From assembly GCF_005795905.1 (NCBI RefSeq), contig NZ_VAWE01000001.1, positions 1,736,001-1,800,000 on the forward strand: a DNA stretch of 64,000 nt, given 5' to 3'. Positions 22,079-56,963 of the stretch are shown one piece after another; positions within the stretch are counted from its first letter, which is position 1; each line of letters begins with the position of its first letter. The translations under genes and the position numbers were made by a program. The notes beneath the pieces were generated by a model. It was not told where the DNA came from and did not search any database. It saw only the letters and a list, made by a program, of their open reading frames with translations. The stretch is from Streptomyces marianii (GTDB taxonomy: Bacteria; Actinomycetota; Actinomycetes; Streptomycetales; Streptomycetaceae).

Positions 22079-22162
22079 ATGTCTCGAGCTGGAATTGCCT
22101 TGGTGAGTCGGCGGCACGTCGACCTCGGCCGCATGTCCAGCGCCATGTGTCGCGCGGCCTGA
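22079..22162 (+). CDS. Cys-codon leader peptide of the sulfate-assimilation operon
   Basis: A 27-residue ORF: MSRAGIALVSRRHVDLGR followed by MSSAMCRAA and TGA. Streptomycetes carry closely similar leader peptides (RAGIALVSRRHVDLGRMSSA) ahead of sulfur genes. One Cys codon (TGT) sits four codons before the stop. The arrangement suggests that ribosome stalling at Cys when cysteine is scarce controls the operon. The peptide is followed within 10 bases by a GC-rich hairpin. It is too short for standard gene prediction. Confidence 0.85.
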   Translation: MSRAGIALVSRRHVDLGRMSSAMCRAA

Positions 22163-22311: not shown

Positions 22312-24009
22312 ATGGCCGCCACCCCCGGAAAGCCCGCCACCGCCACGCCCCGCCGCAAGGCCGGACGCCACCGCGGCGAGGGCCAGTGGGCCGTTGGCCA
22401 CTTCACGCCCCTGAACGGCAACGAGCAGTTCAAGAAGGACGACGACGGTCTCAATGTGCGGACACGTATTGAGACGATCTACTCCAAGCGCGGATTCGAC
22501 TCGATCGACCCGAACGACCTCCGCGGCCGTATGCGCTGGTGGGGCCTCTACACCCAGCGCCGGCCCGGGATCGACGGCGGCAAGACCGCGATCCTGGAGC
22601 CGGAGGAGCTGGACGACGAGTACTTCATGCTGCGCGTCCGCATCGACGGCGGGCGGCTGACCACCGAGCAGCTGCGCGTCATCGGCGAGATCTCGCAGGA
22701 GTTCGCACGCGGTACCGCCGACATCACCGACCGGCAGAACGTCCAGTACCACTGGATCCGCATCGAGGACGTGCCCGAGATCTGGGAGCGGCTGGAGGCC
22801 GTCGGCCTGTCCACCACCGAGGCCTGCGGTGACACCCCGCGCGTCATCCTCGGCTCCCCGGTCGCGGGCATCGCGGAGGACGAGATCGTCGACGGCACCC
22901 CGGCCATCGACGAGATCCAGCGCCGCATCGTCGGCAACAAGGCCTTCTCCAACCTCCCCCGCAAGTTCAAGTCGGCGATCTCCGGCTCGCCGCTGCTGGA
23001 CGTGGCGCACGAGATCAACGACATCGCCTTCGTCGGGGTGAACCACCCCGAGCACGGCCCCGGCTTCGACCTGTGGGTGGGCGGCGGCCTCTCCACCAAC
23101 CCGAAGATCGGCGTCCGGCTGGGCGCCTGGGTGCCGCTGGACGACGTCCCCGACGTCTACGAGGGCGTCATCTCGATCTTCCGCGACTACGGCTACCGCC
23201 GGCTGCGCACCCGCGCGCGGCTGAAGTTCCTGGTCGCCGACTGGGGAGCGGAGAAGTTCCGCCGGGTGCTGGAGGACGAGTACCTGGGGCGCCCGCTGAC
23301 CGACGGCCCGGCGCCGGAGCAGCCCCTGCAGCGCTGGCGCGACCACGTCGGTGTGCACCGGCAGAAGGACGGCCGCTTCTACGTCGGCTTCGCGCCGCGC
23401 GTCGGCCGGGTCGACGGCGCGACCCTCACCAAGATCGCCGAGGTGGCGGAGGCGCACGGCTCGGGCCGGGTGCGTACCACCGCCGAACAGAAGATGATCG
23501 TCCTCGACGTCGAGGAGTCACAGGTCGAGTCACTGGTGTCCGGGCTGGAGTCGCTGGACCTGCGGGTCACCCCGTCCCCGTTCCGGCGCGGCACGATGGC
23601 CTGCACCGGCATCGAGTTCTGCAAGCTGGCCATCGTCGAGACCAAGGCCCGCGGTGCCTCGCTGATCGAGGAACTCGAGCGCCGCATCCCGGAGTTCGAC
23701 GAGCCGATCACCATCAACATCAACGGCTGCCCCAACGCCTGCGCCCGTATCCAGGTCGCGGACATCGGTCTCAAGGGCCAGCTGGTCCTGGACGAGAACG
23801 GCGAGCAGGTGGAGGGCTTCCAGGTGCACCTCGGCGGTGCGCTGGGCCTGGAGGCCGGATTCGGCCGCAAGGTCCGCGGACTGAAGGTCACCGCGGCGGA
23901 ACTCCCCGACTACGTCGAGCGCGTGCTGGGACGTTTCCAGGGGGAGCGCGAGGACGGCGAGCGCTTCGCCGCCTGGGTGGCTCGCGCCGGCGAGGAGTCA
24001 CTCTCATGA
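22312..24009 (+). CDS. sirA: ferredoxin-type sulfite reductase (siroheme, 4Fe-4S)
   Basis: 565 residues. It reduces sulfite to sulfide. The duplicated nitrite/sulfite reductase half-domains are visible, and the cluster/siroheme ligands are Cys431 and Cys437 (MACTGIEFCKLA) and Cys473 and Cys477 (NGCPNACARI). The segment ADITDRQNVQYHWI (near residue 137) is the conserved substrate/siroheme region. The absence of an NADPH subunit gene and the size fit the actinobacterial ferredoxin-dependent SirA type. GAAGGA lies upstream of the ATG. Its stop overlaps the first ATG of the 93-bp repeat array. Confidence 0.95.
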   Translation: MAATPGKPATATPRRKAGRHRGEGQWAVGHFTPLNGNEQFKKDDDGLNVRTRIETIYSKRGFDSIDPNDLRGRMRWWGLYTQRRPGIDGGKTAILEPEELDDEYFMLRVRIDGGRLTTEQLRVIGEISQEFARGTADITDRQNVQYHWIRIEDVPEIWERLEAVGLSTTEACGDTPRVILGSPVAGIAEDEIVDGTPAIDEIQRRIVGNKAFSNLPRKFKSAISGSPLLDVAHEINDIAFVGVNHPEHGPGFDLWVGGGLSTNPKIGVRLGAWVPLDDVPDVYEGVISIFRDYGYRRLRTRARLKFLVADWGAEKFRRVLEDEYLGRPLTDGPAPEQPLQRWRDHVGVHRQKDGRFYVGFAPRVGRVDGATLTKIAEVAEAHGSGRVRTTAEQKMIVLDVEESQVESLVSGLESLDLRVTPSPFRRGTMACTGIEFCKLAIVETKARGASLIEELERRIPEFDEPITININGCPNACARIQVADIGLKGQLVLDENGEQVEGFQVHLGGALGLEAGFGRKVRGLKVTAAELPDYVERVLGRFQGEREDGERFAAWVARAGEESLS

Positions 24010-24377
24010 GCGACGCACGCGCGGCCACCGCCCCGCAGCCGACCGACAAAGCCGCACCCCCGCGCCGCGCGGGCGGAGAAGCGAAACGGGATGCACGGTT
24101 GAGCGACGCACGCGCGGCCACCGCCCCGCAGCCGACCGACAAAGCCGCACCCCCGCGCCGCGCGGGCGGAGAAGCGAAACGGGATGCACGGTTGAGCGAC
24201 GCACGCGCGGCCACCGCCCCGCAGCCGACCGACAAAGCCGCACCCCCGCGCCGCGCGGGCGGAGAAGCGAAAGGGGATGCACGGTTGAGCGACGCACGCG
24301 CGGCCACCCGGCCGCAGCCGACCGCGAAAGCCGCACCCCCGCGCCGCGCGGGCGGAGAAGCGAAAGGGGATGCACGG
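24006..24377. repeat. 4 x 93-bp tandem array inside the cys operon
   Basis: Units start at 24006, 24099, 24192 and 24285. Copies 1-3 are nearly identical; copies 3 and 4 have AAAGGGGATG where copies 1 and 2 have AAACGGGATG, and copy 4 has a few further changes. Every unit begins with a start-like codon followed by AGCGACGC (ATG once, TTG three times). The sequence after the array (GTGAGCGAGCG) is the start of the zinc-ribbon gene and resembles the unit start. Each unit end thus looks like a ribosome site plus start. Confidence 0.95.
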
Positions 24378-24380
24378 TGA
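24006..24380 (+). CDS. repeat ORF of four 31-residue units
   Basis: An ORF of 124 codons starts with an ATG overlapping the sirA stop (ATGA) and ends with a TGA that overlaps the GTG of the zinc-ribbon gene. It consists only of four tandem units, each reading SDARAATAPQPTDKAA followed by PPRRAGGEAKRDAR, with small changes in copies 3 and 4. No folded domain is expected: the units are rich in Arg, Ala and Pro. Whether it is translated, or is merely a spacer that keeps ribosomes flowing from sirA to the next gene, cannot be told. Confidence 0.45.
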   Translation: MSDARAATAPQPTDKAAPPRRAGGEAKRDARLSDARAATAPQPTDKAAPPRRAGGEAKRDARLSDARAATAPQPTDKAAPPRRAGGEAKGDARLSDARAATRPQPTAKAAPPRRAGGEAKGDAR

Positions 24381-24556
24381 GCGAGCGGGCTGCCCCCTTC
24401 TACTGCCCCTACTGCGGCGACGAGGACCTTCGTCCGAGCGAGCAGGGCCACGGCGCCTGGGAGTGCGCGTCGTGCAGCAGGGCCTTCCATCTGAAGTTCC
24501 TCGGGCTGCTCGCCCGCGGGGTTCGGCGCAACGACGACGGAGGGGACGCGATATGA
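24377..24556 (+). CDS. small zinc-ribbon protein of the sulfate-assimilation operon
   Basis: 59 residues from a GTG at 24377, with AAAGGGGA 7 bases upstream (supplied by the repeat unit). Two Cys pairs, YCPYCG and ECASCS, form a zinc ribbon, followed by RAFHLKFLGLLARG. Short proteins of this type sit between the sulfite reductase and cysH in streptomycete cys operons. The function is not established; a role in handling iron-sulfur or sulfide chemistry is possible. It overlaps the cysH start (ATGA), so translation is coupled. Confidence 0.8.
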   Translation: MSERAAPFYCPYCGDEDLRPSEQGHGAWECASCSRAFHLKFLGLLARGVRRNDDGGDAI

Positions 24557-32166: not shown

Positions 32167-32510
32167 GGCGCGCCGCACGCTCGGCGCGGGTCTGGCTTCC
32201 CCCTGCGCCGCACGCTCAGTGCGGGTCGAGCTTCCCCCTGCCCCGCACGCTCAGTGCGTACCCGGCCCGCGCGCTGCACACGCTCCGTGCGGGTCGAGCT
32301 TCCCCCTGCCCCGCACGTTCAGTGCGTACCCGGCCCGGCGCGCCGCACGCTCGGCGCGGGTCTGGCTTCCCCCTGCGCCGCACGCTCAGTGCGGGTCGAG
32401 CTTCCCCCTGCCCCGCACGCTCAGTGCGTACCCGGCCCGCGCGCTGCACACGCTCCGTGCGGGTCGAGCTTCCCCCTGCCCCGCACGTTCAGTGCGGGTC
32501 GAGCTTCCCC
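32167..32510. repeat. two 170-bp direct repeats with internal subrepeats
   Basis: Copy 1 (32167-32336) and copy 2 (32337 to about 32499) are identical over at least 160 bases. Inside each, a subrepeat of about 45 bp recurs, based on TCAGTGCGGGTCGAGCTTCC. This core is the 3' end of the neighbouring DsbA-like gene read on the plus strand: its complement encodes GKLDPH plus the stop. The array is thus built from copies of the gene tail and extends away from it. The rest of the 32002-32166 gap contains no gene. Confidence 0.92.
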
Positions 32511-33127
32511 GTGCGGGTGCGCTTCAGCTCGAAGAAGTCGGGGTGCCTCGCGAGCACGCGGAAGCTGTCGAAGAGCCGCCCCGCCTCCTCGCCCCGGGGC
32601 ACGGAGTTGAGGACGGGCCCGAACCAGACGGCTCCGTCCACATGAAGGGTGGGAGTGCCGACGTATCCGTCCCCCGCCGGGTCCTTCCCGGCGTCATGGC
32701 TGCGGCGCACCGCGTCGTCGTGGCCCGGGTCGTGCGCGGCACCGGCGAGTGCGGCGGGAAGTCCCGTCTCCGCCAGCGACGCGGCGATCACGGTGTCGAA
32801 GTCCTCGGCCTTCTGCCGGTGGATACGGGTGCCCATGGCGGTGTAGAGGTCGCGCAGGACGTGCTCGCCGTGCTGCTCGGCGGCGGCGACCGCGACGCGC
32901 ACCGGTCCGATGGAGCGGTCGACCAGGTCCCGGTACCAGTCGGGGAGTTCGTTCCCGACGTTGTGCAGGAACAGACTCATCGCGTGGAAGCGGACGTCGA
33001 CCGGGCGCCGGCGCTCCACCTCCAGCATCCAGCGCGAGGTGATCCAGGCGAAGGGACAGGCGGGGTCGAACCAGAAGTCGACGGTGGTGCGGTGCGCGTC
33101 GGCGCGGCGCTCGGTGGGCTTGGTCAT
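32489..33127 (-). CDS. DsbA-family thioredoxin-fold protein
   Basis: 212 residues from an ATG at 33127. The segment VDFWFDPACPFAWITSRWML is the start of the DsbA/2-hydroxychromene-isomerase-like thioredoxin fold; the active site is DPACPFAW with a single Cys, as in mycothiol-linked actinobacterial members, rather than CxxC. The cis-Pro region is GYVGTPTLHVDGAVWFGP. It probably acts in thiol or mycothiol chemistry in the cytoplasm. Its last codons (GKLDPH) are duplicated several times downstream, in the repeat array. Confidence 0.85.
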   Translation of the reverse strand: MTKPTERRADAHRTTVDFWFDPACPFAWITSRWMLEVERRRPVDVRFHAMSLFLHNVGNELPDWYRDLVDRSIGPVRVAVAAAEQHGEHVLRDLYTAMGTRIHRQKAEDFDTVIAASLAETGLPAALAGAAHDPGHDDAVRRSHDAGKDPAGDGYVGTPTLHVDGAVWFGPVLNSVPRGEEAGRLFDSFRVLARHPDFFELKRTRTGKLDPH

Positions 33128-56614: not shown

Positions 56615-56790
56615 GAGGCCTTCCCCGTTCTCCGCGTGCTCGGCGTGCTCGGCGTGCTCGGCGTGCTGTTCTCCGCCGGACGGGCAGGGGTCCGCAGGCC
56701 CGGCGGGTCGGGATCCTTCCCGCATCGTGTCCACGGAGCCCGCGGGCGGGCCTCACCCACGCCGGGTGAAATGCGGGAGCCGTGGCCGAG

Positions 56791-56963
56791 GTGCCCGGGA
56801 CGGAGGGCGTGTCCCGGGCCTGGACCGCTGGGGCGGACGGCGTGCCCGGGACGGAGGGCGTGTCCCGGGCGTGGACCGCTGGGGCGGCCGACGTGTCCGG
56901 GGCGGAGGGCGTGTCCCGGGCGTGGACCGCTGGGGCGGCCGACGTGTCCGGGGCGGACGGGGG
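56791..56963. repeat. 3.4 x 51-bp tandem repeat
   Basis: Units begin at 56791, 56842, 56893 and a partial one at 56944. The shared part includes GAGGGCGTGTCCCGGGC and TGGACCGCTGGGGCGG. Copies differ at a few bases. 51 is a multiple of three, and both strands have open frames through the array (for example EGVSRAWTAGA), but there is no ribosome site. It fills the 420-bp gap between tkt and the universal stress protein gene. Confidence 0.92.

Follow-up and report, generated by a model that had tools for sequence, protein, structure and literature searches.

The junction between sirA and the zinc-ribbon gene in the sulfate operon of Streptomyces marianii carries four copies of an intercistronic element that is real, apparently old and distributed family-wide in Streptomycetaceae. 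We analyzed a window of 64,000 nucleotides (contig NZ_VAWE01000001.1, positions 1,736,001 to 1,800,000 of the forward strand), and all positions given for it below are counted from its first letter. Judging from sequence comparison, we consider it probable, at about 0.72, that the array is a tandem-duplicated form of an element resembling the MIRUs, the mycobacterial interspersed repetitive units reportedly described by Supply et al. 1997. Such an element, once or still mobile, would preserve the translational coupling of the genes between which it lies. The junction comprises the following features, the assignment of sirA being based on Pfam and NCBIfam matches and that of the array on TRF and direct reading of the sequence.

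22312..24009, forward strand: sirA, sulfite/nitrite reductase family, upstream gene
24006..24377, forward strand: array, four tandem copies of the intercistronic element
24006..24009, forward strand: ATGA, overlap of the sirA stop with the array ORF start
24006..24380, forward strand: stop-free frame spanning the four units, 124 codons (4 x 31 residues)
24007..24099, forward strand: unit 1, 93 nt, 13/13 helix pairs formed
24100..24192, forward strand: unit 2, 93 nt, same sequence as unit 1
24193..24285, forward strand: unit 3, 93 nt, 1 base different from unit 1
24286..24377, forward strand: unit 4, 92 nt, 6 bases different from unit 1
24289..24304, forward strand: 5' strand of the helix in unit 4, alignment columns 5-20
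24343..24361, forward strand: 3' strand of the helix in unit 4, alignment columns 59-77
24377..24380, forward strand: GTGA, zinc-ribbon gene start overlapping the stop of the array ORF
24377..24556, forward strand: downstream gene for a zinc-ribbon-like protein of 59 aa
24553..25254, forward strand: cysH (PAPS/APS reductase), coupled to the zinc-ribbon gene by ATGA at 24553

TRF places the repeat at 24007-24384 with a period of 93, 4.1 copies, 97% matches and a score of 700, and reading it unit by unit confirmed the tandem array that a preliminary description of this DNA had located between sirA and the zinc-ribbon gene. The array had been given as 4 x 93 bp; the four copies stand, whereas the equal period does not, as the units measure 93/93/93/92 nt. 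The 92-nt length of unit 4 keeps the frame correct at the end of the array. As had been described, every unit starts with a start-like codon (ATG before unit 1, TTG before units 2-4) followed by AGCGACGC, and every unit ends in a purine-rich stretch resembling a ribosome site. The 31-residue repeat frame said to overlap both neighbors is indeed open, running for 124 aa from the ATG at 24006 to the TGA at 24378-24380, with an ATGA overlap at one end and a GTGA overlap at the other. The start of the zinc-ribbon gene had been likened to a fifth unit start, and unit and gene do have TGAGCGA in common, a resemblance that fits an element sitting in a pre-existing overlap. The zinc-ribbon gene itself is present in 390/392 same-genus genomes; its product has no Pfam match, and its NCBIfam matches all lie below cut-off. 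About 150 nt upstream of sirA, a small ORF, MSRAGIALVSRRHVDLGRMSSAMCRAA, was seen by eye at 22079-22162 on the forward strand, which we take to resemble the leader peptide of Streptomyces sulfate operons. TRF further reported two repeats elsewhere in the window: a nested tandem repeat at 32167-32515 with periods of 35, 68, 103 and 170 bp (the 170-bp period being present in 1.9 perfect copies), and a 51-bp repeat at 56784-56957 (3.4 copies).

The array had initially been viewed as a feature of one junction; comparison between genomes instead identifies it as a dispersed element that recurs at dozens of further junctions within operons. Used as a DNA query, the unit gave strong matches within its own genome at the four array copies only. 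A covariance model, R1, located a fifth, diverged copy between nuoB and nuoC, and further own-genome matches beyond the array and nuoB/nuoC were at noise level. Relatives of the unit occur in 148/392 same-genus genomes, own included (DNA query, E up to 1e-4). R1 matched in 48/150 family genomes, covering 9/17 sampled genera with up to 22 matches per genome, and in 16/296 class genomes, 12 of which belong to the same genus; because the class and family searches used strict filters and few scored candidates per genome, these R1 counts are lower bounds and do not prove absence. Four weak hits among the 296 class genomes (G427, G451, G497 and G535), considered as homologues outside the family, were taken as chance; by eye, none ends in NTGA in register, and a GTGA start is seen in one locus only (L142). 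A pattern scan of named genomes yielded 101 stretches, and the 80 listed comprise 78 from Streptomyces and 2 from Streptantibioticus. A repeat private to the sulfate operon is ruled out by this dispersal over genus and family.

From the best-scoring matches listed, which do not amount to a census, we read 176 arrays with 252 units, leaving out eight loci from the first own-genome search, the four chance loci, duplicate window loci and arrays near locus ends. These arrays occupy about 50 kinds of gene junction. By script, the downstream genes fall into 55 clusters, a number that is approximate because the downstream frame was misassigned at some zinc-ribbon loci, with at least one cluster, that of the zinc-ribbon gene, counted twice. 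Best NCBIfam matches, which lie below the curated cut-off for some neighbor proteins that are partial, named ten downstream genes (argJ, nuoC, cysD, pbp2, rodA, nuoE, a siderophore-permease-like gene, ribBA, nuoN and sufS) and six upstream genes (argC, nuoB, mreD, pbp2, nuoD and an adenylyl-sulfate kinase gene). Junctions include argC-argJ, nuoB-nuoC, nuoD-nuoE, adenylyl-sulfate kinase-cysD, mreD-pbp2 and pbp2-rodA. In one array (locus L036 of genome G219, positions 752-1580), nine units follow one another at 92-nt spacing, with mreD upstream and a PBP2-like gene downstream. In Rfam searches of 10 loci at E up to 1, nothing matched the element, the one weak match, in L015, lying away from it. 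Titles and abstract starts in the open-access literature, with subscription journals mostly outside this scope, contained no report recognizable as this element in Streptomyces, which is weak evidence of novelty.

The same comparison defines the insertion site and orientation. The typical unit is 92 nt long, and 168/176 arrays start with (A/G/T)TGA. In 154/176 arrays, a script could walk from the unit through a chain of successive 4-nt overlaps to a long ORF downstream. According to a second and cruder script, the stop of the upstream gene falls exactly at the unit in 141/176, sense genes were detected on both sides in 155/176, and one was detected downstream in 169/176. The chain was not fitted in 22/176 arrays, among them the window array, which was scored outside the chain because the script stops at long frames. 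In some 13 of these 22 arrays the unit frame stays open and joins a long frame that seems to belong to the downstream gene; three (L021, L032 and L055) end in TGATG, a 1-nt overlap. At eight loci (L011, L017, L026, L074, L171, L194, L199 and L210) the unit frame runs stop-free into a long downstream frame, so that the next protein could gain an N-terminal extension from the element.

Element-free versions of these junctions were surveyed as well, with the row for L345 unreadable. Among the 30 loci whose zinc-ribbon proteins are most similar, window included, the sirA/zinc-ribbon junction is a bare ATGA/GTGA overlap in 23 (22 scored by script, L117 by eye), carries the element in 5 (window included) and holds another spacer in 2. 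For argC/argJ, the 30 loci divide into 18 bare 4-nt overlaps, 6 with the element and 6 other or unreadable; for cysC/cysD, 29 of 30 are bare 4-nt overlaps (several rows read by eye) and 1 has the element. Since most element-free sites are bare 4-nt overlaps, the element evidently sits within pre-existing stop/start overlaps, and the 23/30 sirA/zinc-ribbon loci uphold the earlier claim of an insertion at a translational-coupling point.

Comparison of units also points to preservation of the reading frame. Over the first ~85 nt, stop codons interrupt the ORF frame in 0/119 units and the other two frames in 31/119 and 10/119. Within arrays, the spacing modulo 3 is 2 in 53, 0 in 20 and 1 in 3 of 76 cases, or 30, 13 and 1 when each length is counted once per array; these frame and spacing counts are not independent trials, as units and loci are related by descent. 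Tallied by downstream cluster, the phase is approximately 42/10/3 of 55, with the same misassigned frames at some zinc-ribbon loci. Remainders of 2 and 0 keep the chain open, and a remainder of 1 breaks the coupling. A single array among those read, L214 in G686, has a 91-nt spacing, the coupling-breaking phase. The Shine-Dalgarno (SD) core is present at 98/158 downstream starts versus 90/158 of the unit's own starts; as it is about as common at the latter, the unit end represents an ordinary ribosome site, not a clearly enriched one.

We propose the following arrangement for these observations. The element, Streptomycetaceae-wide and in sense orientation to the flanking genes, would occupy the (A/G/T)TGA stop/start overlap of coupled operon genes and bring with it a mini-cistron free of stops, a purine-rich 3' end and a helix of long range. 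The start codon of this mini-cistron would overlap the stop of the gene upstream, and its stop codon the start of the gene downstream. On reaching the end of sirA, a ribosome would restart at the element, translate it and restart at the next gene. Insertion would then do little harm, and its effect on cysHCDN may be nearly neutral. In the window, one 92-nt copy at the sirA/zinc-ribbon junction would have been duplicated upstream to give four, with the 93-nt spacing fusing the mini-cistrons into one 124-codon frame and both couplings kept. The relay of ribosomes through the unit is the strongest part of what we infer, with looping by the helix as a potential alternative or addition.

The long-range helix emerges from covariation between units in two alignments. 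Alignment A1 contains 52 of 82 distinct units, near-duplicates and other lengths having been left out. Alignment A2 contains 19 of 30 units from the family-search loci, the 11 dropped being near-duplicates, units with a column-shifting internal length and one mis-registered unit. For helix columns 5-6/76-77 and 9-20/59-70, 98.2% of cells in A1 are paired, and 6 pairs with 22 cells are changed on both sides, which 0/500 shuffles reach; for the number of additional pair types, 13/500 shuffles attained the observed value. In A2, 91.1% of cells are paired and 7 pairs with 15 cells are changed on both sides, again reached by 0/500 shuffles. All four window units form 13/13 helix pairs. A local hairpin at columns 16-21/26-31 displayed no covariation and was rejected.

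These data bear on two other accounts of the unit. In the first, which we regard as possible but tentative, the unit acts as a structured RNA: the helix folds the insert out, the upstream stop comes to lie no more than about 15 nt from the next start, and coupling is achieved by looping and not by translation of the unit. The covariation in both A1 and A2 is in keeping with this, as is the closure of column 5 with column 77, which leaves 15 nt, including the purine-rich stretch, before the next start. Likewise, at columns 16-17/62-63 of A2, the GC/CG pairs are jointly replaced by tandem G-A mismatches (G-A/A-G) in 7/19 units. Looping, however, leaves the open frame and the kept length phase unexplained, and single units fold no better than shuffles (6/6 tested, z 0.14 to 1.06), so that the case for the helix rests on covariation. 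The second account takes the open frame at face value, as a new protein of 31-residue repeats that is made and used, as the preliminary description had suggested. The 124-codon frame, coupled at both start and stop, would allow for it, but among 50 gap-free rows of the 52 in A1 the ratio of observed to expected non-synonymous over synonymous changes is 1.03 in the unit frame (1.21 and 1.04 in the other frames), so that no purifying selection on the unit peptide is seen, and the array peptide has no Pfam or NCBIfam match. We consider such a protein highly improbable; it seems that the frame matters and the peptide does not.

Copy number at the sirA junction differs between species, ranging over 0, 1, 2, 3 and 4, and the identical number in all relatives that the preliminary description would have taken, together with absent ribosome footprints, to indicate an inert spacer did not occur. 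The 14 genomes found with the element at this junction carry 4, 3, 2, 2 and ten times 1 copy, and many others carry none. Units are 0.929 identical within the same array and 0.722 at the same site in other genomes; at different sites, identity is 0.660 within versus 0.688 between genomes. Dispersal thus appears old or slow and tandem duplication recent. A recent burst within genomes is not visible, as copies at different sites are no more alike within than between genomes. Of the four units, unit 4 is the one most similar to the lone copy that the relative G230 carries at this junction (8/92 mismatches versus 13-14 for units 1-3), so that the array probably grew upstream from unit 4. Against this background, the array could also serve as a copy-number tuner, each extra unit altering the number of ribosomes that arrive at the zinc-ribbon gene and cysHCDN and the whole acting as a rheostat for sulfate assimilation. 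The variable copy number and the recent look of the tandem copies would agree with such a role, as would the link between tandem-repeat length upstream of fpg and expression in M. tuberculosis (PMC2734929). That link is not a simple one, since the abstract associates a longer fpg-upstream repeat with higher expression and one passage reports the lowest level in the type 6 strain (PMC2734929). The rnc-fpg array resembles ours in having a variable number of tandem copies upstream of a gene; it differs in that variation between strains and a link to expression are described for it (PMC2734929), whereas the Streptomyces array was compared between species, with one genome for each. Moreover, arrays occur at many unrelated operons, with nine copies at the mreD/PBP2-like junction, and give no pointer to sulfate-specific control, and we hold the tuner to be unlikely. 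Far less likely still is that the array is an artefact of assembly or a duplication that is inert. Short reads can mis-assemble identical copies such as units 1 and 2, but the assembly comprises 7 contigs, this one being 8.4 Mb long, units 3 and 4 each have differences of their own, and 43/176 of the arrays read contain 2 to 9 units.

If the MIRU-like element is, or was, mobile, its engine would not appear to be a Y1 transposase. Genes of this family are absent in 9/12 copy-rich genomes and present in 5/16 without a detected unit, and no mobilizing enzyme was found by this comparison of the Y1 transposase family in 12 copy-rich and 16 unit-negative genomes. The window genome has 4 Y1 transposase family matches. 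A search for terminal inverted repeats gave at best 8/16 matches between the consensus ends.

To our knowledge, coupling-preserving intercistronic elements are otherwise known from mycobacteria only. That Streptomycetaceae harbor another such family, with no detectable kinship in sequence, suggests that mobile DNA has a general way of living within operons. A bolder version, which is speculative and which we doubt, would have a family-wide coupling parasite that recognizes overlaps, perhaps on translated mRNA, inserts in sense only and combines a fold-out helix with a ribosome-relay mini-cistron; such elements would have arisen independently in mycobacteria and Streptomycetaceae, with copy number letting hosts tune single operon steps. 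Copy number varies naturally, from 0 to 4 at the sirA junction and up to 9 at other sites, and offers a direct test of how such inserts influence operon expression. For annotation, small ORFs and repeat peptides predicted at such junctions are probably parts of elements and not proteins.

Several classes of short repeats invite comparison. REP/REPIN sequences are short, dispersed, helix-bearing elements moved by Y1 transposases. The Streptomyces element is likewise short, dispersed and helix-bearing but differs in its sense orientation, its location at coupling points and its lack of association with a Y1 (RAYT) transposase. MITEs are small and carry no mobility gene, which also holds for the Streptomyces element; unlike them, it lacks a terminal inverted repeat. 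MIRUs are inserted at DTGA stop/start overlaps in operons, in sense orientation and also as tandem copies. Using an 18-base MIRU core as the query, we obtained matches in 6/292 class genomes and none with the reversed control; five of the six belong to a single genus and carry as many as nine copies. Among 14 MIRU-type loci, 8 show an NTGA-unit-NTGA arrangement with an ORF ending in the next overlap (lengths e.g. 50, 53, 59 and 74), the upstream ORF being short in several of the 8. R1 found no significant match on the 14 loci (best E 0.041, away from the repeat; at L333, a match with E 0.081 ends beside it). Given the shared logic and this result, the element operates in the manner of a MIRU, but these data do not place it in the same sequence family. 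By eye, one MIRU-type repeat (L342 in G454, at ~1500) lies behind the apparent end of cysH, an unrelated element in a similar operon.

According to one report, MIRUs appear mobile and insert at start codons, the ORF inside becoming coupled with -4 spacing (PMC12548453). Two differences from MIRUs stand out: the Streptomyces unit typically measures 92 nt, compared with mostly 50-74 for MIRUs, and the host family is Streptomycetaceae as opposed to mycobacteria. The likenesses are that the Streptomyces element is a short dispersed repeat (a 92-nt unit at about 50 kinds of junction, against 40-100 nt and many loci for MIRUs), occupies a DTGA-type site with (A/G/T)TGA at nearly all array starts, carries a unit ORF joined to its neighbors by 4-nt overlaps in the great majority of arrays, and follows the orientation of its flanking genes.
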